A DNA stretch of 64,000 nucleotides from Pontibacter litorisediminis (GTDB lineage: Bacteria; Bacteroidota; Bacteroidia; Cytophagales; Hymenobacteraceae). Under the pieces are notes generated by a model. The model did no database searches and was not told the origin of the DNA. It was given only the letters and a program-made list of their open reading frames with translations. Where the stretch lies: positions 496,001 through 560,000 of the forward strand of contig NZ_JARDUA010000001.1 in assembly GCF_029360645.1 (NCBI RefSeq), given 5' to 3'. The translations under genes were made by a program, and so were the position numbers. Positions 3,962 through 14,571 of the stretch are shown piece after piece (position 1 is the first letter of the stretch; every line of letters starts with the position of its first letter).

Positions 3962-5257
3962 CTATAGTTCTTCAATTTCTGCGACCACAAAGGTACTACC
4001 TCCGATAAAAATAACCTCATCCGGGGCAGCATTTGCCTTGGCCGCCGCTATGGCCTCCGGCACCGAATGGTAGAAGCTTCCTTTTAGGCCCGACGCTTCA
4101 GCCTGTTGCACCAAGTCCTGCACCGGAAGCGCGCGCGGTATGTTGGCTTGGCAAAAGTAGTAAGTATACCTTTGAGGCAACAGCTGCAGGATCTTCATCA
4201 CATCCTTATCATTCACAGCACCGAAAACCATGTGCACCTGCTTTGGATGCAGCTGCTCCAGCCCTTGCAGTATCTGCCGGATGCCATCTTCGTTGTGGCC
4301 CGTGTCGCAGATGGTAAGCGGCTCCTGCTGCAGCACCTGCCAGCGCCCTTTCAGGCCAGTGATGCTTTTGGCGTTAGCAAGCCCGCTTCGAATGGCCGCC
4401 TCAGGTATAAGAAGCCCTTTCTGATCTTGCAGCACCTGCAGTACCTGCAATACCCCCGGCAGGTTATACTTCTGGTACCCCCCTGCCAAGTCTAGTTCCA
4501 GGTTTTGCAAGTATAATTTACCTTCCCGTGATACATGGAACACTTGCCGCAGCAAAGTGCTTTCCGTCAGATCCAAACTATAAAAGTCCTGGGCAAAGTA
4601 TAGAGGGGCCTTTACTTCGCTTGCTTTGGCAATAAACACCTCCTCCGCCTCAGGCTGCCGCATGCTTATCACGGCCGGCACATTCGGTTTTATGATGCCG
4701 GCCTTCTCCGCAGCTATCGCAGCAATGGTATCGCCCAGCATACTTTGGTGATCAAAGCTGATGTTGGTGATGAGCGAGACCTCAGGCGTGATGATATTAG
4801 TGGAGTCCAGGCGGCCGCCTAAGCCAACCTCTACCACCGCCACATCCACCTGTTCCTCGGCAAAATACTTAAAAGCGAGCGCCACCGTCATCTCAAAGAA
4901 CGACGGCTGTATCCTTTCGAACAGCTGCTTGTGCTGCTCTACAAATTGTATAAGGTAATCCTGCGGGAGCTCCTGCCCGTTTACGCGAACGCGCTCAGTA
5001 AACGACTTGAGGTGCGGTGAAGTATAGAGCCCGGTCTTGTAACCGGCCTCCTGCAGCACCGCCGCCAGCATGTGCGAGCTGCTGCCCTTGCCATTGGTGC
5101 CTGCCACATGGATACTCTTGAACTGGTGCTGCGGCTGCCCTAGCGCCTCGCAAAGAGCCAGAATATTGTCCAGGCTCTTCTTAAAAGCAGCATTGCCGAT
5201 GCGTTGGTACATCGGCAATTGCTGGTATAAATAATCAAGACACTCTTGATAGGTCAT
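3962..5257 (-). CDS. folC: Folylpolyglutamate synthase / dihydrofolate synthase FolC
   Basis: FolC is an ATP-dependent ligase that joins glutamate to dihydropteroate and to folates. The Mur-ligase-like P-loop is at residues 53-60 (GTNGKGSS). It is followed by LYTSPHLKSFTERVRVNG, VEVGLGGRLDSTN, NISFDHQSMLG and the C-terminal CDTGHNEDG. The open frame extends to 5443, but the extra 62 residues overlap tonB and do not resemble FolC. I place the start at the ATG at 5255-5257 (MTYQECLDYLYQQLPMYQRIG), giving 431 residues and a 16-bp gap to tonB. It is probably cotranscribed with the envelope genes upstream, although its role is folate metabolism. Confidence 0.95.
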   Translation of the reverse strand: MTYQECLDYLYQQLPMYQRIGNAAFKKSLDNILALCEALGQPQHQFKSIHVAGTNGKGSSSHMLAAVLQEAGYKTGLYTSPHLKSFTERVRVNGQELPQDYLIQFVEQHKQLFERIQPSFFEMTVALAFKYFAEEQVDVAVVEVGLGGRLDSTNIITPEVSLITNISFDHQSMLGDTIAAIAAEKAGIIKPNVPAVISMRQPEAEEVFIAKASEVKAPLYFAQDFYSLDLTESTLLRQVFHVSREGKLYLQNLELDLAGGYQKYNLPGVLQVLQVLQDQKGLLIPEAAIRSGLANAKSITGLKGRWQVLQQEPLTICDTGHNEDGIRQILQGLEQLHPKQVHMVFGAVNDKDVMKILQLLPQRYTYYFCQANIPRALPVQDLVQQAEASGLKGSFYHSVPEAIAAAKANAAPDEVIFIGGSTFVVAEIEEL

Positions 5258-5273
5258 CAAAAGAAAATAAAAA

Positions 5274-6200
5274 TTAGCGGGACGTAATTCTGAACGTAAC
5301 AACACCGGAAGCCCCCGAAGTGGCAGCGCCCGAGCCTGTACGGCTAAAGGTGGTCTTGTAAAGCTGGTCGCGATACCATTTCTCCACCTGCGGCGAAACT
5401 GTGCTTTCGACACGCTCCACGCTGACAAGGTTACCGTCAGCATCGATTTGTATCTTAAAGCGGATCACACCTGTTTCGTTGCTGTATGGGTCTCGCTTCG
5501 GCTCAATGTCGTAACGCCAGCCAGGCATGTTCAAGGAGCCGCCGGCTCCACCACCCGCTTTGCCATACAGTGCTTTGGCGTTCACATCTCCGTCCGGGCT
5601 GCCCTTATCGCCTACCTTGCCGGTATCGTCGCCGTTGTTGTTGCCCGTGGCAGCATCCGAAGAGCCGTTTTTACCCGTGCCCGAACTAGTGGTAGGCTGG
5701 CCTGGGTAAAGGGCCCGTGGCTTCTCGGGCTCTTTCTTCACCACTTCCTCCTTTGGAGGCTCAGGTTTTGGCTCCGGCTTCTTCACCTCCTCCTTTTTAG
5801 GCTGCGGCTTAGGTACTGGCTTCACTTCCTCCTTCACCGAAACCGGCTCCGGGGCCGTGGTCGTAGTTACCTTCGGTGTCTCCACAGGCTGTGCCGGAGG
5901 AGTTGGCTGCGGCGTTGGCTCTGGCTGCGGTTCCGGCTCAGGGTCTGGCTGTGTCGGCGCAGGCTTGCTGTCCTCTACGTTCTTAGACTCATTCGGCACG
6001 GCCTTGGTCTGCACATTGCCACTGCCCACGTTATCTGTGCCGAAGTTCAGCTGGATGCCGAGTTCCGGTGCAGGTGGGTCTGGCGCGCGCCAAGCCAGCA
6101 TGTAGATCAGGAAAAGCAGGATAAGCACATGCACCCCGATGCTGACACCGGCGGCGATGCGTTTATTCTTCTCTTCTTCCTTAGAAAGGGCAATTGCCAT
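5274..6200 (-). CDS. tonB: TonB-family energy transducer
   Basis: This 308-residue protein has the TonB plan: a short cytoplasmic N-terminus, one membrane segment (about residues 17-44, GVSIGVHVLILLFLIYML), then a Pro/Glu/Lys-rich linker (about 70-165, many PEP/PKP repeats). A Gly/Asn-rich stretch and a C-terminal domain of about 85 residues follow. The C-terminal domain has GVIRFKIQIDADGNLVSVERV and ends VTFRITSR. It transmits energy from ExbB/ExbD to an outer-membrane partner. exbD lies 11 bp upstream, and exbB and a beta-barrel gene are in the same unit. The set could equally act as a TolQRA-like system; sequence alone does not decide. Confidence 0.9.
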   Translation of the reverse strand: MAIALSKEEEKNKRIAAGVSIGVHVLILLFLIYMLAWRAPDPPAPELGIQLNFGTDNVGSGNVQTKAVPNESKNVEDSKPAPTQPDPEPEPQPEPTPQPTPPAQPVETPKVTTTTAPEPVSVKEEVKPVPKPQPKKEEVKKPEPKPEPPKEEVVKKEPEKPRALYPGQPTTSSGTGKNGSSDAATGNNNGDDTGKVGDKGSPDGDVNAKALYGKAGGGAGGSLNMPGWRYDIEPKRDPYSNETGVIRFKIQIDADGNLVSVERVESTVSPQVEKWYRDQLYKTTFSRTGSGAATSGASGVVTFRITSR

Positions 6201-6211
6201 AGTATGCGTTC

Positions 6212-6613
6212 TTATTCATTTGGCACAGTGGCCAGTGTTACACTTGCGTTCAGGTTTTTGGCGATGCCGGCTACCCTTGCCAGGTGCTCTACCGGTACGC
6301 TTTTATCTACGTGTAACACCACAGCCCCCTGCTCTGTTCCAGCGTCCTGCAGCAAGGCGGTAAGCTGCGGCTCGATGTCCTCCGGCGCAATTTCCTTATC
6401 ATTCAGGTAGTACTTCAGGTCCTCAGAGATCGTAATGCTGATCTTTTGCATCACAATGTCGGAGGTCTTGCTGCTTGGCAGGCTAACAGGCAAGCCGGAA
6501 GGCGTCACGAAGTTAGACGTCAGCATGAAGAAAACCAGCAACAGGAAAATAATGTCGGTCATAGACGACATGCTGAACTCTGCGTTAATCCTGTTTTTAG
6601 AGCGAATGTTCAT
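6212..6613 (-). CDS. exbD: ExbD/TolR-family proton channel subunit
   Basis: The 133-residue protein has one N-terminal membrane segment (about 17-36, MSSMTDIIFLLLVFFMLTSN). It carries the conserved membrane Asp (D20) that takes part in proton transfer in ExbD and TolR. The periplasmic part (about 45-133) has the usual ITISEDLKYYLNDKEI and VVLHVDKSVPVEHL features. The ATG lies 2 bp from the exbB stop and 11 bp precede tonB. ExbD and TolR cannot be told apart from sequence alone. Confidence 0.93.
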   Translation of the reverse strand: MNIRSKNRINAEFSMSSMTDIIFLLLVFFMLTSNFVTPSGLPVSLPSSKTSDIVMQKISITISEDLKYYLNDKEIAPEDIEPQLTALLQDAGTEQGAVVLHVDKSVPVEHLARVAGIAKNLNASVTLATVPNE

Positions 6614-6615
6614 CC

Positions 6616-7326
6616 TTAAAGCTGTGGTTCTTGTAATAGATCAAGGAACTCTATAGAAGAGTACTCCATGGCATGCACAATGCTGTCTATCTTAGACACC
6701 AGGTAGTTATACCCAACATAGGCTGGCAAACCAATAATCAGACCAGTTGCTGTGGTTACCATGGCCTCGTAGATACCACTGGAAAGTAACTTCGGGCTAA
6801 CAGAGCCCTCTGCCTGCGCAATGGCGATGAAGGCACCGATCATACCCGTTACCGTACCCAGGAAACCCAGCATAGGCGCAGCACCGGCAACCGTGGCTAG
6901 CGCGGCAAGGTTCTTCTCCAGTTGGCTGATTTCGATCTTACCCTGGTTCTCAATAGAGGTCTCGATATTCTTCAGCGGGTGCCCGATGCGCGTAATGCCT
7001 TTAGAGATCATGCGGGATACGGGGGTGTTCGTCTGTGCGCAAAGCATTTTAGCCCCATTGATATCGCCGGCCAGCACCATGCTTTTGATGCGGTCGTTGA
7101 AGCCCTCCGGATTCTTCGCCGCCTTCTTCAGCGTCAGGTAGCGCTCCACGAAAATATAAATGCCTGCCAAAGACAGGAGCGCGAGCGGAATCATGGCCCA
7201 CCCGCCATTCATGGCCAAATCTAAAAGTGAAACGGAAGTTTCAGCAGCAGCTTCAGCCCCCTCTGCCAGTGCTACGGTTGTGTCGGCGTCAGCCGCGGTT
7301 GTGATTTGTAATAACAGCGATGTCAT
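6616..7326 (-). CDS. exbB: ExbB/TolQ-family proton channel subunit
   Basis: This is a 236-residue membrane protein of the MotA/TolQ/ExbB family. It has a first membrane segment at about 43-61 and a large cytoplasmic loop. Two further segments lie at about 140-170 (VAGAAPMLGFLGTVTGMIGAF) and 185-215. The LGTVTGMI stretch is the family signature lining the proton path. An N-terminal stretch of about 35 residues rich in Ala, Asp and Thr precedes the first segment. It sits between the HU-SPOR gene (1 bp away) and exbD (2 bp away), so coupled translation is likely. Confidence 0.93.
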   Translation of the reverse strand: MTSLLLQITTAADADTTVALAEGAEAAAETSVSLLDLAMNGGWAMIPLALLSLAGIYIFVERYLTLKKAAKNPEGFNDRIKSMVLAGDINGAKMLCAQTNTPVSRMISKGITRIGHPLKNIETSIENQGKIEISQLEKNLAALATVAGAAPMLGFLGTVTGMIGAFIAIAQAEGSVSPKLLSSGIYEAMVTTATGLIIGLPAYVGYNYLVSKIDSIVHAMEYSSIEFLDLLQEPQL

Positions 7327-7327
7327 G

Positions 7328-8425
7328 TTAATTATTAAGTACCCAAAGTGTTTCTCCGAATTTCTTTCTATAGTTGTTCAGGGCTTCCTGTGCCTCCTCG
7401 CCAGAGTTAAAACCTGCTAGCGAGACACGGAACAGCCTGCTGCCAGGCTGTGGCAACAGAATGTGCACCTCTTCGTGGCCCTCCTTTAGCAGGGTGGCAC
7501 GGTATTGCTCGGCATTCTCCAGGCGGGCATACCCTCCCGAGATGATATAAGAACGTCCGTCTCTTGTATAAATTATGTGTGCCGGGGCTGTCTCTTCTGC
7601 TTCTGCCGCCACAGGCACCTCGGCCTCTGCAACCTCCTCAGGCGCAAATGCATCCGCATCGCTTCCTGAAGTTAAACTTTCCGCTTCTGTTGCCTCCGAA
7701 GTATAAGCTTCAGGGGCAACAGGACTTTCTTGCAAAGATGGCGTTCCCTCCTCAACCAGCGGCTCCTGCTCATCTACGACGGTGGTGGTGTGGCCGCTCG
7801 AGGCGAAGACTGCCATTGGATTCAGGCTGCTCAGGTTATACCCGTCCTGCAGCGACAGGAAGTACAGGGCCGACACCGAAAGGCCTGCCAAGGCAAGTCC
7901 GGCGGCAACGTTGTACGCACGCTTGATGCGACGGCGAAGCGGTTGCCTCTCCTCCACCAGTTCCTGCTGCCGCTCCTTGATAAGAGTTCGCAGCACGGCC
8001 GGTTCCTCTACTTTCACAGGCCTTGCAGAGAGCTCTGGCAAACCGAAACTCTCCTCCAGCATGTTATCCGCTTCCGTATGCTCAAACACCAGGCGCCGCT
8101 CCGCATTGTAGCGAAAAACGCCGATATCGCTTAGCTCATACTTGTTGGCCTGCTGCAGATTGCTTTTGGCTCTGTGCACAAACTCTGCCACCCGCTGCTG
8201 CGCCTCCGCTTTTGGTATCTGGTTATGGTGCGCAATGGTGCTGATAAGCAGCCCGTCGTTCAGAATAAGCTTCTCGTTAAAAGCTATCTTTTTAGATGGC
8301 GGCGAGAGCGTATGCTTTACCGGGTTTATACGGGCAGGCACGTAACGTGCGATCAACCCGCCAAAGTCCGGGATGATGACGCAGTCGTGATCATACAGCA
8401 GTGACTTGATGTGCTTCTCAACCAT
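7328..8425 (-). CDS. HU-CCDC81-like domain plus transmembrane segment plus SPOR domain protein
   Basis: I use the ATG at 8423-8425, giving 365 residues; an in-frame TTG two codons upstream is possible. Residues 1-130 match the paired HU-CCDC81-type bacterial domains (VEKHIKSLLYDHDCVIIPDFGG; later ANKYELSDIGVFRYN). A basic RRRIKRA stretch (164-170) precedes one membrane segment (172-191), which predicts that the N-terminus is cytoplasmic. A Glu/Ala-rich linker leads to a C-terminal SPOR domain (about 285-365, RSYIISGGYARLENAEQY), which in other proteins binds denuded septal peptidoglycan. The protein would thus connect the cytoplasm, possibly DNA, to the cell wall. It lies between a beta-barrel gene and exbB. 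Confidence 0.8.
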   Translation of the reverse strand: MVEKHIKSLLYDHDCVIIPDFGGLIARYVPARINPVKHTLSPPSKKIAFNEKLILNDGLLISTIAHHNQIPKAEAQQRVAEFVHRAKSNLQQANKYELSDIGVFRYNAERRLVFEHTEADNMLEESFGLPELSARPVKVEEPAVLRTLIKERQQELVEERQPLRRRIKRAYNVAAGLALAGLSVSALYFLSLQDGYNLSSLNPMAVFASSGHTTTVVDEQEPLVEEGTPSLQESPVAPEAYTSEATEAESLTSGSDADAFAPEEVAEAEVPVAAEAEETAPAHIIYTRDGRSYIISGGYARLENAEQYRATLLKEGHEEVHILLPQPGSRLFRVSLAGFNSGEEAQEALNNYRKKFGETLWVLNN

Positions 8426-8434
8426 AAGCAAAGT

Positions 8435-10123
8435 TTAGAATGAGTAAGTTACGCCTCCTATCAGGTTTATACTTTTGTGCGGGTAATTTACGAAACGCTC
8501 GTACTTTTTCCCAAACAAGTTATTGGCCATCAGGAACACAGTAAAGTTATTGGTGAACTTGTAGTCCGCCTTCAGGTTCAGGTCCACGATCGAGTCAGTT
8601 TCACGTAACTCAAAGGTACCATCCGGGCGGGTAATACGGCCAAATGAACTCCCAATATAGTAAAGTTCTGAATTAAACAGAATCTTGTCGTAGAAGTTGT
8701 AGGTGCCGTAAACGCTGGCCATGAGCTCCGGACGGTGGAAGGGCTGCTCCAAGCTAGCCATGTTATAGCTGTTATAATCAGCCTTTAAACCCAGCCGCAC
8801 CTCATCCGAATAGTTGAAAGAGGCCTCGCCATAAATATTGAAAACATTTGTCACACCGTCGTCATACAGCAGCTCAAACTTAGCAGGGTCTGCCACGGAG
8901 TTGTTGTAAAAGTACAGGTTGCGGAAGTTCTGGTATGCCACGCGGCCGTTCAGGTGCACATAGTTGGCGATGTTTGCCTGAAAGCCACCGTAAATCTCCA
9001 GCCCTTTGTTCACGTCGGCCACCTGCACGTTTGGCGCCAGGAACGGATTCTCCTGCGTCAGCTCATATAAAGTAGTTCTTTCCAGGTCGCCCCCAATACC
9101 ACCGTATATCAGCAGGTTTCCTTTTATCGGCTCCAACCCTACGCGCACCATAGGGTACACGTTCATCTGGCGGGCATCGTTCACCTCGTCGCCCGTGTAA
9201 GCCACCCGCGCACCTATCGTCAGGCGCACCACCTCGAACTGGCGCTCGTAGGCAGCGGTCAGTTTAAAGAGACCACGGCTCACATCGGCAGAGTCTTTAT
9301 GCGACAGCACCGACAGGTCGGCATCCACTTTAAATGCTGAGATGTCGTCGATGCCATACTCGCTGCGGAAGTCCACAGCAAAGTTGCTCTCGTTCATCTC
9401 ATAGTTGTCATTGATATAGCGGAAGCGGGCGTTAGTCCTGTACAGGAAAGGCGAATTAGAATTGTGGTTGTGGAAATAGCCCTGCGCATGAATGCGGTTA
9501 AACACCTGCTTAATCGTGTCCCGATCTACCTCCACACCCTCTACCGGCTCGTAGCCGTAGAAATAGCGTTTCTCCCGGCCATACTTCAGGTCGCCGCCAA
9601 CAGTAAGGCCCTGCAGGTAACGCTCCCCGTGCAGGCCGATATCAGATTGGCTTACAGCAGAGTTAGCCCTGTCTACCGGACCTCTGGATGAAGACACATG
9701 GCTCACGTTGGCACCGATGCTCGCATCCTTACTGCGCTTGTTATGGAAGTACCCTTTTAAGTATAAGGTACCATAATTACCCAAGCCAGCTTTTACATAG
9801 TTGCCGTACAATTTGGTTAACTCGTCCTGCTTTATTGTCAGCACCTTCATCTGCAGGTCCACGTCCTGGTCTGGCAGTCGGTAGTCTGAGAAACGGTAGC
9901 GAACGTTGCGGTCAGCGATCTCAGGCGGGTTGATCCGGAACTTTTCATAGTTACGGGCTGCCTGTGGCAGCTCGATCACACGGTTCTTCTCCACCACAAC
10001 CTCAGCGTCCTCCAGTTTTCCTCCCTCGGACCAGCCTTGATTCTGCGCCTGTGCTGTGTTTAAGTAGCTGTAGCCTACACTCAGAACAATGGCAAGCGAT
10101 GCTAATCTTAATTTATTTTTCAT
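8435..10123 (-). CDS. Outer-membrane beta-barrel protein, TonB-dependent-receptor-like, no plug
   Basis: A signal peptide (about residues 1-26, ending AQAQ) is followed by about 535 residues of alternating amphipathic strands. The C-terminus is aromatic (VTYSF), as expected for a BAM-inserted outer-membrane barrel. The last third (LKADYKFTNNFTVFLMANNLFGKKYERF) resembles the end of TonB-dependent receptors. I see neither a plug domain nor a CarboxypepD_reg-like repeat. At 562 residues it is shorter than typical receptors. It lies 33 bp after the large TPR gene and just before the HU-SPOR/exbB/exbD/tonB genes, so it is the likely outer-membrane partner of that module. The ligand, if any, is unknown. 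Confidence 0.75.
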   Translation of the reverse strand: MKNKLRLASLAIVLSVGYSYLNTAQAQNQGWSEGGKLEDAEVVVEKNRVIELPQAARNYEKFRINPPEIADRNVRYRFSDYRLPDQDVDLQMKVLTIKQDELTKLYGNYVKAGLGNYGTLYLKGYFHNKRSKDASIGANVSHVSSSRGPVDRANSAVSQSDIGLHGERYLQGLTVGGDLKYGREKRYFYGYEPVEGVEVDRDTIKQVFNRIHAQGYFHNHNSNSPFLYRTNARFRYINDNYEMNESNFAVDFRSEYGIDDISAFKVDADLSVLSHKDSADVSRGLFKLTAAYERQFEVVRLTIGARVAYTGDEVNDARQMNVYPMVRVGLEPIKGNLLIYGGIGGDLERTTLYELTQENPFLAPNVQVADVNKGLEIYGGFQANIANYVHLNGRVAYQNFRNLYFYNNSVADPAKFELLYDDGVTNVFNIYGEASFNYSDEVRLGLKADYNSYNMASLEQPFHRPELMASVYGTYNFYDKILFNSELYYIGSSFGRITRPDGTFELRETDSIVDLNLKADYKFTNNFTVFLMANNLFGKKYERFVNYPHKSINLIGGVTYSF

Positions 10124-10156: not shown

Positions 10157-13100
10157 TTAGTTCTGCTGCCCAGTTGTGTCGATCGGCTGGGTGGTAGTAT
10201 CCACCGGCTCCAGGATTACTGCGTCCTGGTTCTGCTGCTTCCGCTGGCGCTGTTGCTGCAGGTTTTGCGGCTGCGCTTGCTGCTGCTGCTGAGGCTTTCC
10301 CTCCAGCTTGGCCAGCTTTTGCTTCGCCTCCGCCACAACTTCCTGGTTAGGCGCATTCTCAATAATGGAGTTAAGCGTGGCACGCGCCTGGAACATCTCA
10401 TTTTGTGCAGTATAAATATCGGCTATCAGCAGGAAGGTCCTGCCCAACCAGAAGTCGTAACTGCCATACTTGTTGCTGAACTCAAAGGCATGGTCAAGCG
10501 CCTGCTGGTACTGCTTCTGCTTGAACATCGTCTCTGAGATAAGGTAATGAGCCTCTGCCCCGTGGATGTCGGTTGCTGAAGCAGTGGTTTCCTTCAACTC
10601 CGTCATCGCCTGGCTCAGGTTACCCTGCGCCAGCGTTGCCTTGGCCCTGAACAGCAACGCCGAGTTGTAAGCGTTAAGCGAGGCGTTGCCCTGGCTGATC
10701 AACTCGCCTGCTACCCGCTTGGTGGCGGCATAGTCGTTGGTGCGGAAATAGCTTTGCATCAGGCCAAGCAGCGCTGTCTGCTGCTCCTTTCGGTTGGTAG
10801 CCAAATCGCGCAGGCGGCTGTAGTATTTGATGGCCTCCGGATAGTTGCCCACTTCAAACTCCAGGTCAGCCACACGCTGTATCGCGCGGTTCACAAATTC
10901 GGAGCGGTTTTCCTGTACCACCTGTTTCATCACCTTCACGCCTTCCTGCTTTCTGTCGCTGCGCAGGTACGAGTCGGCCAGGTAGTAGCGGGCGTCCGGC
11001 AGGAAAGAGCTTTTTGGATAGGTGTTGACATACTTCTCCAGCTTGGCGGCCGCCTCTTTGTAGTTTTGGTTAAAGTACAAGGTCTTAGCGGCCTCAAACT
11101 CTATGCTTTCCAAAGCGTTGCTCTCCGGGTTGGCAGACTTGTAACGGTCTACATACTTGTCGAATTCGCTGCTGCGGTTCTCTTGCCCCAGTACTTCCTG
11201 CAGGCTGTAAAGCGCTCCACTCGCCACTTTGGAATCCGGGTACTCATCCAGCACGCGTTTCTGATCGGCAATAGCCAGGTCGTTTTGGCGCAGGTTAGAG
11301 TAGGCCAGACCACGCTTCTGCAGCGCGTTAGGCACCAGCCTGCTGTCCGGCACATCGTTGATCATCCTGGTAAAGCCCTGCACTGCCGCCTGGTAGTTAC
11401 CTGCCTCAAAGTCGATCACGGCATACTGGTACATCGCATCATCGCGGAAGCGGGATGTCTTATAGTTGTTGATCAGCTCCTGCAGCGCGTCTTTGGCCCT
11501 GGCGTTCTGGTTCTGAATGCTCAGCACCACCCCTTTTTGGAACAAGGCGTAATCACGGTCTGGTGAGCTGCTGGAAATGACGCGCTCGTACAGGCGCAGG
11601 GCCTCGTTGTAATTCTTGTTGACGTAATAGGTATCCGCCAGGCGCACCGTGGCGTCGTTATAGTTCGGGTTACTTGGCTGGACGTTGTCCAGGTACGCCT
11701 TAAAGTGCGTCAGGGCCTTGTCGTACTCTTTGGTGTTGAAGTATGCGTACCCAATGCCGTAGCGCGACTTGATGTAGTAATCCTCTTTGTTGTTTGGCGC
11801 CGTACGGAACACCGCTGCGTAGCTGTTGATCGCATCGTTGTAACGCTGCCCGATAGAATAGGCCTCGCCTTTCACAAAATGGCTGGCAGCCGTCACTTCC
11901 TTATCATAAGGGTACTGCAGCGACTTATCCAGCATGGCCACTGCTTGCGGGAACTTGCTGTCGTTAAACAGGTTCACGCCGTGGAAGTAGGTCACGCGCT
12001 GGTAGGTTTGCAGGATGCGCCAGCTTTTCTTGTCCATGGCCTCGATGTGGCGGATGGCAGCCGCATAGTCATTTGAGCCAAAGTATGACTCGCTCAGCAA
12101 CCGGTCTGCTTCCTCGGCTTCTTCCGATTTAGGGTATTTGGCCGAGAAATCAGAAAGGGAGTTGATCACTTCACGGAAGTTACCCAGGTCAAAGTTCACC
12201 TGCGCATACTTCAGCGTAGCCGCCTCGGTTACGGCCTTATCCAGGTCGTTCTTGCGCGCCTGGTCAAAAGCCGTGAGGGCAAACTGCTTGTTATTCTCCT
12301 TCAGGTAGCTCAGGCCCAGGTAGTAAGCCGCGTTCTGCCCCAAAGTATCCTTCTTAAGCGCTACTGACTTAAAGTTGGCAATGGCGTTTTTGTAGTTGTT
12401 GTTCTTGTAATCCGTGAAAGCGATCTTGTACTGTATCACCGGGTCCAGCGAGCGTTTCCCCTCGGCATACTGGCTAAAGTATTTCTCTGCAGTCTTGTAC
12501 TCAGCGCGCTGGTAGTAGGCATCCCCCACCAGCAGGGCAATCTCATCGCGCTGCTGCACCTCCGGCTTTTTGGCCAGCGCCGCCTCACCGTAACGGATCA
12601 CCTCGTACACATCATTCTCCTTGTACAGGATCTCCGTGATCATATAAGGCACAATGCGGGCATAAGCCTCGTTTTTCTCGGCTATCTTCAGATCCTCTTT
12701 CGCCGCGGCGTAATCCCCTTTGCGGTAGGAGATGTAGCCGGCATAGTAGTTAGAGGCATAGGCAAAACGGTGGTCGTCCTCGCGGAAACCAGTAGTCTTG
12801 TTTTTATCGAACCAGATCTTGGCGTTATCGAAATCTTTGGTAGCGAAGTAGGAATAACCCAGCTTAAACTCCAGCTCCTTGTTCTGCTTGATGCTGAGCA
12901 GGTGCGTAGGCGCATCCTTCAGCAGCTCCACCGCTTTCTTGTAATCCTTCTGCTCAAAGTAGTACAGACCCAACTCATAGTTGGCCAGGGCTGTTTTAGG
13001 GTGCGTCGGATACTTGCGGGCAAAGTTTAGCACCAGTTGCTCGGCATCCGGGTGCAGCAGGTACAAGCCGCTCAGGGCATAATAATACTGCGCATCAGCA

Positions 13101-13300
13101 GTTTTGGCGTCGTTGCCGATGAGCTCGATATACTTTTTGAAGGCCTCCTGCGCCGCGCCATACTTGGCACGGTCAAAAAGCTCTACGCCTTCATGAAAGT
13201 ATCGCTCCTCGGAGGTGAAAGCCTGCGTGTGCTGCGCCACCACCACGTGGGAGCCGCCCGTCAGGACCGATGCAAGTGCTATTTTGTAACCTATCTTCAT
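10157..13300 (-). CDS. Large periplasmic tetratricopeptide-repeat protein
   Basis: I place the start at the ATG at 13298-13300 (MKIGYKIALASVLTGGSHVVVAQ), which gives a proper signal peptide; the open frame runs 20 codons further upstream. The mature protein is about 1,020 residues of TPR repeats, with many copies of the A-x-x-Y-x-L-A-x-x-Y-x type, for example near YAKALAKY-like segments throughout. It ends in a Gln-rich tail (QQQQQAQPQNLQQQRQ) and a Thr/Asp stretch. TPR arrays are protein-binding scaffolds. CpoB/YbgF, a TPR protein, is the periplasmic partner of Tol-Pal in proteobacteria, and a similar role is plausible here. It is the promoter-proximal gene of the eight-gene unit. Confidence 0.85.
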   Translation of the reverse strand: MKIGYKIALASVLTGGSHVVVAQHTQAFTSEERYFHEGVELFDRAKYGAAQEAFKKYIELIGNDAKTADAQYYYALSGLYLLHPDAEQLVLNFARKYPTHPKTALANYELGLYYFEQKDYKKAVELLKDAPTHLLSIKQNKELEFKLGYSYFATKDFDNAKIWFDKNKTTGFREDDHRFAYASNYYAGYISYRKGDYAAAKEDLKIAEKNEAYARIVPYMITEILYKENDVYEVIRYGEAALAKKPEVQQRDEIALLVGDAYYQRAEYKTAEKYFSQYAEGKRSLDPVIQYKIAFTDYKNNNYKNAIANFKSVALKKDTLGQNAAYYLGLSYLKENNKQFALTAFDQARKNDLDKAVTEAATLKYAQVNFDLGNFREVINSLSDFSAKYPKSEEAEEADRLLSESYFGSNDYAAAIRHIEAMDKKSWRILQTYQRVTYFHGVNLFNDSKFPQAVAMLDKSLQYPYDKEVTAASHFVKGEAYSIGQRYNDAINSYAAVFRTAPNNKEDYYIKSRYGIGYAYFNTKEYDKALTHFKAYLDNVQPSNPNYNDATVRLADTYYVNKNYNEALRLYERVISSSSPDRDYALFQKGVVLSIQNQNARAKDALQELINNYKTSRFRDDAMYQYAVIDFEAGNYQAAVQGFTRMINDVPDSRLVPNALQKRGLAYSNLRQNDLAIADQKRVLDEYPDSKVASGALYSLQEVLGQENRSSEFDKYVDRYKSANPESNALESIEFEAAKTLYFNQNYKEAAAKLEKYVNTYPKSSFLPDARYYLADSYLRSDRKQEGVKVMKQVVQENRSEFVNRAIQRVADLEFEVGNYPEAIKYYSRLRDLATNRKEQQTALLGLMQSYFRTNDYAATKRVAGELISQGNASLNAYNSALLFRAKATLAQGNLSQAMTELKETTASATDIHGAEAHYLISETMFKQKQYQQALDHAFEFSNKYGSYDFWLGRTFLLIADIYTAQNEMFQARATLNSIIENAPNQEVVAEAKQKLAKLEGKPQQQQQAQPQNLQQQRQRKQQNQDAVILEPVDTTTQPIDTTGQQN

Positions 13301-13396
13301 ATTTGCGTGTTCGCCCCGCAGGGCACATCGTTTTATTCTGATTAAAGGAGAAAGTATCAAACAACTGTTATTTCCTGCTCCTCATACTACCTCACT

Positions 13397-13524: not shown

Positions 13525-14571
13525 CTAGGAAGCCAATGCGCGGGGCACCGGGTGCAGCACCTTGAAAACCAGCTCGCGCAGGATATCCGCCTCACTCATA
13601 TCGCCGCCCGTGATCCCCTTCACTTGCAAGTCGGCCACCCGGATGAAATGGATGATATCGACGCAACGTGGCAACGGGTACACGCGCATGGCCTGCATGT
13701 AGTCCTTCACCTTCCAGGCTTGGTTGCCGAGGCTTTTCTTCAGGCCCGCCTCCGACTTATCGGCCTGCGTGTGCAGCGTCAGGATCTTGGTGAAAAAGGT
13801 GAACAGCATCGTCAGGTTCGGGATGAGCGGGTTATTCTTGGGGTTGGCCTCAAAGTAATGGATGATGCGGTTGGCCTTTAGTGCGTCGCGGGCAATGAGT
13901 GCCGACTGCAGCTCAAAGATGTTGTATTCTTTGCTGATGCCTACATTCTCCTGCACCAGCCCCTCGTCCACCGTTGCCCCCGGCTTCAGGTTGATCAGCA
14001 GCTTATCGATCTCGTTGGCCAGCCTAGAGAGGTCAGAGCCGATATACTCTGCCAGAAGCTGCACCGCGGGCTGGGTAGCCTTCATGCCTTTGCTCTTGAG
14101 GTAACCGTTTACCCAGGCCGGCACCTGGTTGTCGTAGAGCTTTTTGGTGGTGAGCAGCACCGCATGCTTCTGCACCGCCTTGGCCAGCGACTTACGCCCA
14201 TCCAGCGACTTATGCTTGTAGCAGAAGACAAGTATGGTGGAGGCAAGTGGGTTTTGCAGGTAAGCCTCCAGTTGGCGCATCCCCTCCTCCTTCTCAATGT
14301 CCAGGATGCTCTGCGCCTCTTTCACGATCACCACCGACTTGTCCGACATCATCGGGAAGCGCTTGGCCTGCAGCAACACCTGCGACACATCCACATCCTT
14401 GCCATACAGCACAACCTGGTTAAAACCCTTCTCGTGCTCCTGCAGCGCGTGCTCCTCGATGTAGTCGGCAATGGTATCAATGTAGTACGACTCCTCGCCC
14501 TGCAGAAAGTATACAGGGGCGAACTGCCTTTGCTCTAGTTGCTCTAGAATGCCTTCGGGTGTTTGGGCCAT
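13525..14571 (-). CDS. holA: DNA polymerase III delta subunit HolA
   Basis: The delta subunit opens the beta sliding clamp within the clamp-loader complex. The 348-residue protein begins MAQTPEGILEQLEQRQFAPVYFLQGEESYYIDTIADYI, the typical HolA N-terminus. It then has the AAA+-like FPMMSDKSVVIVKEAQ segment, with no Walker A motif, as expected for delta. The Lid segment AEYIGSDLSRLANEIDKL is at about residues 173-190. A C-terminal helical collar domain completes it. It is transcribed alone from a good promoter at 14627-14655 and separated from the TPR unit by 220 bp. Confidence 0.93.
   Translation of the reverse strand: MAQTPEGILEQLEQRQFAPVYFLQGEESYYIDTIADYIEEHALQEHEKGFNQVVLYGKDVDVSQVLLQAKRFPMMSDKSVVIVKEAQSILDIEKEEGMRQLEAYLQNPLASTILVFCYKHKSLDGRKSLAKAVQKHAVLLTTKKLYDNQVPAWVNGYLKSKGMKATQPAVQLLAEYIGSDLSRLANEIDKLLINLKPGATVDEGLVQENVGISKEYNIFELQSALIARDALKANRIIHYFEANPKNNPLIPNLTMLFTFFTKILTLHTQADKSEAGLKKSLGNQAWKVKDYMQAMRVYPLPRCVDIIHFIRVADLQVKGITGGDMSEADILRELVFKVLHPVPRALAS

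Follow-up and report, generated by a model that had tools for sequence, protein, structure and literature searches.

A membrane protein with HU-CCDC81-type and SPOR domains as a candidate wall-binding component of a Tol-like trans-envelope machine in Bacteroidota

A membrane protein of Pontibacter litorisediminis, which carries two HU-CCDC81-type domains, a single membrane helix (TM), and a C-terminal SPOR domain, may be the subunit by which a Tol-like trans-envelope machine binds the wall from the inner membrane, a reading to which we give about an even chance. Its gene is located in the stretch of 64,000 nucleotides analyzed here (referred to as the window; contig NZ_JARDUA010000001.1, positions 496,001 to 560,000), within a block that also encodes a receptor-like outer-membrane barrel and an ExbB/ExbD-type motor. 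For the pinching of the outer membrane at division in Bacteroidota, this block is a concrete and genetically testable candidate.

Domain structure and predicted topology

The gene (7328-8425, minus strand) starts with ATG and has 365 codons plus a stop codon; its ORF listing begins at TTG, 6 bases upstream of this ATG, and first-Met starts were used for all sequences. The paired HU-CCDC81-type domains near the N-terminus, claimed in an earlier note on this DNA and referred to here as HU1 and HU2, were both detected above the curated cut-offs of Pfam (Table 1). The positive-inside stretch (RRRIKRA) and the single membrane segment of the same note were also recovered by sequence and hydropathy, at residues 164-170 and about 173-191: the most hydrophobic 19-residue window started from residue 173, with a mean value of 1.83. 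Lys and Arg accounted for 6 of the 17 residues leading to the helix and for none of the 15 that follow it, in agreement with the proposed topology, in which the HU part is predicted to be cytoplasmic and the SPOR part periplasmic. Lys and Arg were more numerous before than after the helix in 42 of 53 members and equal in 5.

In the AlphaFold2 model (28 sequences; mean pLDDT of 68.2), the HU and SPOR blocks showed pLDDT values of 73-93 and 80-88, respectively, a helix covered residues 163-191, residues 208-280 were a low-confidence stretch, and a SPOR fold with its strands and helices appeared at residues 292-364. Together with PF05036, whose cut-off was passed only narrowly (23.7 vs 21 bits), this fold bore out the assignment of a SPOR domain to the C-terminus. 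The closest named relatives were proteins from Pontibacter (73-74% identity), and no match was found for the protein in a PHROGs search. A search of solved structures using the single sequence gave one match (E 0.84); when a profile was used, HU, IHF, and SPOR chains were among the best matches.

Table 1. Features of the HU-TM-SPOR protein and the neighboring genes in the window
Feature	Position	Strand	Basis
HU1-HU2-TM-SPOR protein, 365 aa	7328..8425	-	ORF, Pfam, AlphaFold2 model
HU1 (HU-CCDC81_bac_1), residues 2-57	8255..8422	-	PF18174, 78.9 bits, cut-off 26
HU2 (HU-CCDC81_bac_2), residues 58-127, arm of 8 residues	8045..8254	-	PF18175, 70.6 bits, cut-off 35
FGLPELSARP, residues 127-136; F/Y-G-L core also in 8 HU-less slot proteins	8018..8047	-	sequence
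RRRIKRA positive-inside stretch, residues 164-170	7916..7936	-	sequence
Membrane helix, residues 173-191	7853..7909	-	hydropathy; model helix 163-191
SPOR, residues 293-354 (Pfam), 292-364 (model)	7364..7549	-	PF05036, 23.7 bits, cut-off 21; fold
TPR protein, signal-peptide-like start (by reading)	10157..13360	-	YbgF model TIGR02795, 213.6 bits, cut-off 90.1 (models of this type can also match other TPR proteins)
p6, TonB-receptor-like outer-membrane barrel	8435..10123	-	predicted model; Foldseek BtuB, E 2.5e-18
ExbB/TolQ-like motor subunit	6616..7326	-	PF01618, 103.9 bits, above cut-off
ExbD/TolR-like motor subunit	6212..6613	-	PF02472, 86.8 bits, above cut-off
TonB/TolA-like transducer, proline-rich, S-x3-H in membrane helix	5274..6200	-	sequence; TolA model, 24 bits, cut-off 59.45
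folC, true start probably downstream of listed ORF start	3962..5443	-	TIGR01499, 388.7 bits

Neighboring genes in the window

The genes of the block are arranged on one strand in the order TPR, barrel (p6), HU-TM-SPOR, ExbB, ExbD, TonB-like, and FolC, with gaps of 33, 9, 1, 2, and 11 bases along the block from TPR to TonB-like. The model of p6 (pTM of 0.67) consisted of a signal-like helix, a low-confidence region at residues 1-106, and then 26 strand segments, and its best matches in Foldseek were BtuB. No folded plug was seen in this model, in which residues 1-106 were at low confidence, and no family was matched by p6 in Pfam at E 0.1. In ExbD, the Asp residue in the membrane segment was present in all nine sequences listed. 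The TonB/TolA-like transducer gave no Pfam match at E 0.1 and reached no cut-off of the TonB or TolA families, and S-x3-H was found in the TonB membrane helix in 29 of 49 cases. Of 89 loci searched, 42 had folC adjoining the block. Since a second ExbB system is located elsewhere in the window genome, with two ExbD-like neighbors (by reading), the system in the window looks dedicated. The block is preceded by the gene for the delta subunit of DNA polymerase III (13528-14571); at the same place in 8 loci of the family f2 (see below), an ORF of 341-370 amino acids was found.

Gene order across the phylum

Gene order was read from HMM searches, for which the alignment A1 supplied the SPOR and HU models; both models favor its members. 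SPOR in the counts for the slot, the position behind the barrel, was called by this family-built model at E 0.01 and not by that of Pfam. A1 omits L062 (start trimmed into HU1), L092, L094-L099, most of the near-identical relatives in the genus, and many loci of f7, and contains L035 with its N-terminus missing through the choice of start.

The complete block of the window, from TPR to FolC, was identical in 28 relatives. Barrel and ExbB shared one strand at 63 loci (the window, 28 close relatives, 26 found by HU, and 8 of f2 found via the barrel alone), and between them TM-SPOR was located in all 63, HU2 in 55, and HU1 in the same chain in 40. The earlier note had suggested a link to envelope constriction from the order beside ExbB/ExbD/TonB and proposed co-conservation with exbBD as a check. 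The tie to these genes was supported: the order recurred in other classes, and TM-SPOR was located between barrel and ExbB in 77 of all 78 loci in which these flank the slot (28 being the close relatives). A less biased sample was drawn from other classes by the barrel alone, with HU and SPOR ignored, and comprised 20 genomes from 14 families: TM-SPOR adjoined the barrel in 19, and ExbB was present in 15, with SPOR between barrel and ExbB in 14 of these. The sole exception among the 15, L199, had barrel and ExbB without a slot protein. Furthermore, the barrel-SPOR-motor core was kept at loci with no folC detected in the vicinity, and also at loci whose barrel has an identity of 13-18% to that of the window. 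In other lineages, the genes of the block lie apart.

PF18175 was matched by 204 of 392 genomes of the phylum at E 0.001 and by 76 above the cut-off; often just 14 first-look candidates were scored per search, and some of the weaker matches were short ORFs of HU size. At the 60 loci chosen by HU (L060-L119), barrel and ExbB both adjoined in 26, the barrel only in 5, and neither in 29. The barrel alignment at E 1e-20 matched 99 of 148 genomes of the phylum, with one match per genome in 98 of the 99; all 37 listed genomes of the window's class were matched, and the misses listed (20 of 49) were all outside the class. Among 28 hand-picked genomes of the class, 27 were matched by the barrel at E 1e-5 (G269 weakly), and G373 gave no match. 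At the 24 barrel loci of the class that were fetched, the TPR gene adjoined in all 24, and the barrel was followed by SPOR in 8 (f2), by HU-TM without SPOR in 2, and by neither in 14; since the hand-picked set was chosen largely for HU lying elsewhere, the separation of the genes is overstated by it. In two genomes of the family f5, the slot protein had HU and no SPOR. HU-TM proteins ending without SPOR were seen at L079-L081, L164, and L165, of which L164 and L165 are in the slot behind the barrel.

Where the motor genes were not adjacent, the HU-SPOR gene had an EnvC-like gene two or three genes away at 9 of 34 loci (for example, L102, 4808-6025), as counted by a greedy gene caller that misses genes covered by overlapping ORFs, such as ExbD and TonB in the window. 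This is suggestive, and was not used as evidence because the name rests on the reading of one sequence.

HU part of the slot protein

In the AlphaFold2 model, HU1 had a single leading helix, and neither of the two units corresponded to a full canonical HU. Among the 54 relatives, which were picked by PF18175 or by the window HU-TM-SPOR protein itself, 46 and 54 were matched at E 0.01 by PF18174 and PF18175, respectively, and 4 by the Pfam model of eukaryotic CCDC81. The general HU family (PF00216) matched the window protein at residues 59-106 only, with 22.6 bits against a cut-off of 22.4, and matched 31 of the 54 relatives at E 0.01. The arm of HU2 comprised 7-8 residues in all 54 members vs 26 between comparable marks in the genome's own HU, and that of HU1 was longer (median of 28 residues over positions 22-49 of the window protein; median net charge of +1). 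Asn-Pro was found in the HU1 arm of only 4 of the 54 members (48 have the HU1 stretch), the window protein being one of the 4. The median pI of the HU region was 5.6, with values below 7 in 50 of 54 relatives, in contrast to 9.8 for the genome's own HU; the region in the window protein had a pI of 7.1 and a net charge of 0. Compared with canonical HU/IHF, the window protein thus passed the cut-off of PF00216, and had neither the long basic beta-arm nor the basic character.

In VIA comparisons, HU2 was superimposed on HU (4p3v) with a Z of 8.0 (70 residues, rmsd 2.9). For the tandem (residues 1-127), the highest Z values covering both units were obtained with two proteins of the doublet microtubule, 8v3l_A (Z 8.1 over 109 residues; rmsd of 4.2) and 8snb_1K (Z 7.8 over 118 residues; rmsd of 5.2), and with a chain of a gliding ATPase from Mycoplasma, 9io5_R (Z 7.5 over 108 residues; rmsd of 3.0). 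The value for single-chain IHF with DNA, 2iie_A, was lower (Z 5.5 over 87 residues; rmsd of 2.9); a Z near 8 is middling, and values less than 8 may reflect merely a common arrangement. In this tandem-HU structural match, the window protein resembles the eukaryotic CCDC81-type microtubule inner proteins. The titles of 8v3l_A and 8snb_1K name just the doublet microtubule, and our guess is that both are CCDC81 chains; according to one paper, a Tetrahymena axonemal model printed as 8V3I contains CCDC81b.

The HU part differed among lineages. In the window's class, HU1 and HU2 are in one chain. At 22 of 35 loci of other classes, a small HU1-like ORF was located just upstream of the SPOR protein, as detected by an HU1 model that contained two of the loci scanned, and HU2 was on the SPOR protein in 21 of these. 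This occurrence of HU1 as a separate ORF elsewhere and in one chain in the window's class argues that HU1 and HU2 pair. In f2, a family of the window's order, HU was absent in all 8 slot proteins, and the membrane helix and SPOR-like end were kept; the Pfam SPOR model matched 1 of the 4 HU-less proteins scanned, and PF18175 had no match in the genomes of this family, a zero that is not absolute since often just 14 first-look candidates were scored. Three states of HU (separate, joined, and absent) occur in one slot, which suggests that the two units form a pair that serves the SPOR protein and not the chromosome. Fusion and loss of HU would be the corresponding events, with a direction given by parsimony only. 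On the minus strand of L192, a stand-alone HU-like protein of 93 amino acids (6231-6560) adjoins a SPOR protein with an HU-like start (4921-6237).

A short motif in the cytoplasmic part was shared by proteins with and without HU. G-[LM]-x-x-hydrophobic-x2-4-P was found after HU2 in 34 of 54 members and its looser form in 44, as compared with 1% and 8.5% of shuffled 40-mers, respectively. When 130 residues were searched in each HU-less slot protein, the strict motif was found in 7 of 8, and the F/Y-G-L core in 8 of 8. Our best guess from these sequences is that the G-[LM]-x-x-hydrophobic motif may be a docking site.

SPOR domain

The SPOR domain of the window protein was superimposed by VIA on 6ozd_A (Z 8.7, 77 residues, rmsd 2.7), DedD (Z 7.2, 74 residues, rmsd 3.1), and DamX (Z 5.5), and the Pfam SPOR model was matched by 42 of 54 relatives at E 0.01. 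According to PMC6895207, Q270 of RlpA is the Gln residue that contacts denuded glycan. The column assigned to this residue, by reading of the motif in an alignment without RlpA, contained Ile295 in the window protein and Ile, Val, Met, or Ala in all 51 alignable members, and Gln was found there in six slot proteins of other classes (L192, L193, and L195-L198). The binding of peptide-free glycan by SPOR, as expected in the earlier note, is plausible by fold for the window protein and not assured, because this Gln is absent. The only other SPOR match in the window genome was within a BioF-like ORF (BioF by sequence reading). A sole SPOR protein per genome was considered as a clade-wide feature and dropped, since 55 of 60 genomes of the class had 2 to 7 SPOR matches.

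Proposed function and alternatives

In the proposed machine, the proton-driven ExbB/ExbD (TolQ/TolR-like) motor would power the TonB/TolA-like transducer, which would cross the periplasm towards the receptor-type barrel without a visible plug and the large TPR protein. The bitopic SPOR protein would place the machine through its binding to the wall, for which constriction sites are the most likely location, and its cytoplasmic side (the G-L-x-x-hydrophobic motif, with or without HU) may dock on a partner in the cytoplasm, with a division protein as a plausible candidate. The two HU units would form a pseudo-dimer for protein contact and not a DNA clamp. We infer this function, including the localization, docking partner, force coupling, and constriction role of the machine, from domains, gene order, and conservation. 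A wider proposal, possible but with the chances somewhat against it, is that the block is the missing outer-membrane constriction machine of Bacteroidota and sister classes, in which the plugless barrel would replace TolB-Pal, the machine's own SPOR protein would position it, and its cytoplasmic readout would be the HU fold, recruited as a separate protein, fused, and in one lineage discarded.

The earlier note had seen in this protein a nucleoid tether, in which HU1 and HU2 bind DNA, SPOR holds the septal wall, and the position of the chromosome is coupled to division, with the use of the HU fold for protein contacts as a second option. Membership of the HU superfamily (PF00216 was passed by 22.6 vs 22.4 bits and matched 31 relatives), the superposition of HU2 on HU over 70 residues, and the long, on the median slightly positive arm of HU1 are consistent with a tether, as is the title of Burroughs et al. 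2017, which gives chromosome partitioning for HU clades; going by this title, both the domain family and a chromosome-partitioning proposal have been published. However, the HU2 arm is short in every member, the HU region is mostly acidic in comparison with the genome's own HU, Asn-Pro is rare in the HU1 arm, and HU is absent in all slot proteins of f2. We consider a tether through DNA binding quite unlikely, and the second option of the note fits better; some contact with DNA is still conceivable because HU2 passes PF00216, the HU1 arm is longer, and the window protein has Asn-Pro. The bacterial HU-CCDC81 proteins are defined by PF18174 and PF18175, both above the curated cut-offs in the window protein, to which the SPOR partner across the phylum, the operon context, the separate HU1 ORF, the HU-less members, and the acidic charge are added here. 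A role in protein contact would shift the HU-CCDC81 fold in bacteria away from its presumed DNA role, and would agree with the use of HU-CCDC81 in eukaryotic cilia.

FtsN, DedD, and DamX are bitopic proteins with the N-terminus inside and a C-terminal SPOR domain. The window protein is predicted to be alike in all three respects, but differs in having HU inside (in most members), motor and barrel neighbors, and no glycan-contacting Gln. An activator of this FtsN/DamX type, which would switch septal wall synthesis via its periplasmic linker and dock on a division protein, with the motor genes acting at the same stage without physical contact, agrees with this topology, with the VIA matches to the SPOR domains of DedD and DamX, and with the lack of another SPOR match in the window genome outside the BioF-like ORF; on the other hand, most genomes of the class have other SPOR candidates, and the gene order joins the SPOR protein to motor and barrel and not to genes for wall synthesis, which leaves this role rather unlikely. 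The receptor-like barrel alongside ExbB/ExbD/TonB might also indicate a TonB system for nutrient uptake that the SPOR protein anchors to the wall. We regard this as highly improbable: the barrel model has no folded plug (with residues 1-106 at low confidence), and there is a single barrel match in 98 of 99 genomes, unlike a nutrient-receptor family. Inherited clustering of housekeeping genes without a shared machine would explain the housekeeping genes, folC among them, on the flanks of the block, but is very unlikely given that the core of barrel, SPOR, and motor is retained at loci with no folC detected in the vicinity and at loci with a barrel identity of 13-18%.

Comparison with Tol-Pal

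The run of genes in the window resembles Tol-Pal in the TolQ/TolR-type motor, the TonB/TolA-like transducer, and the TPR protein above the YbgF cut-off, but has a receptor-like barrel and a SPOR protein, and no TolB or Pal. The proton-motor pair is located beside the transducer, which was called by sequence and not by a family cut-off, and the equivalog scores were 96.4 (cut-off of 221) for TolQ and 44.6 (127.3) for TolR. In the window genome, no match was found for TolB_N, and none of the 14 matches of the Pal model was above the cut-off; TolB_N was above the cut-off in the control, Bacteroides ihuae, so that a TolB-like domain does occur in the phylum. The machine proposed here would thus work like Tol-Pal without belonging to it, and the second ExbB system of the genome could do the Tol job.

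In a 2025 survey (PMC12204202), tol-pal loci are described as not identifiable in Bacteroidetes, other systems are expected, and PorE is proposed as a candidate for constriction of the outer membrane in Bacteroidota. The top-ranked matches in open-licence literature contained no account of the operon as a machine, and none on this protein by title; SPOR, ExbD, and tetratricopeptide occur in a Chryseobacterium genome paper (PMC10710014). Apart from the slot protein, the barrel and the TPR protein may by themselves be a core pair of the envelope, the barrel being matched in all 37 listed genomes of the class and the TPR gene adjoining it at all 24 loci.
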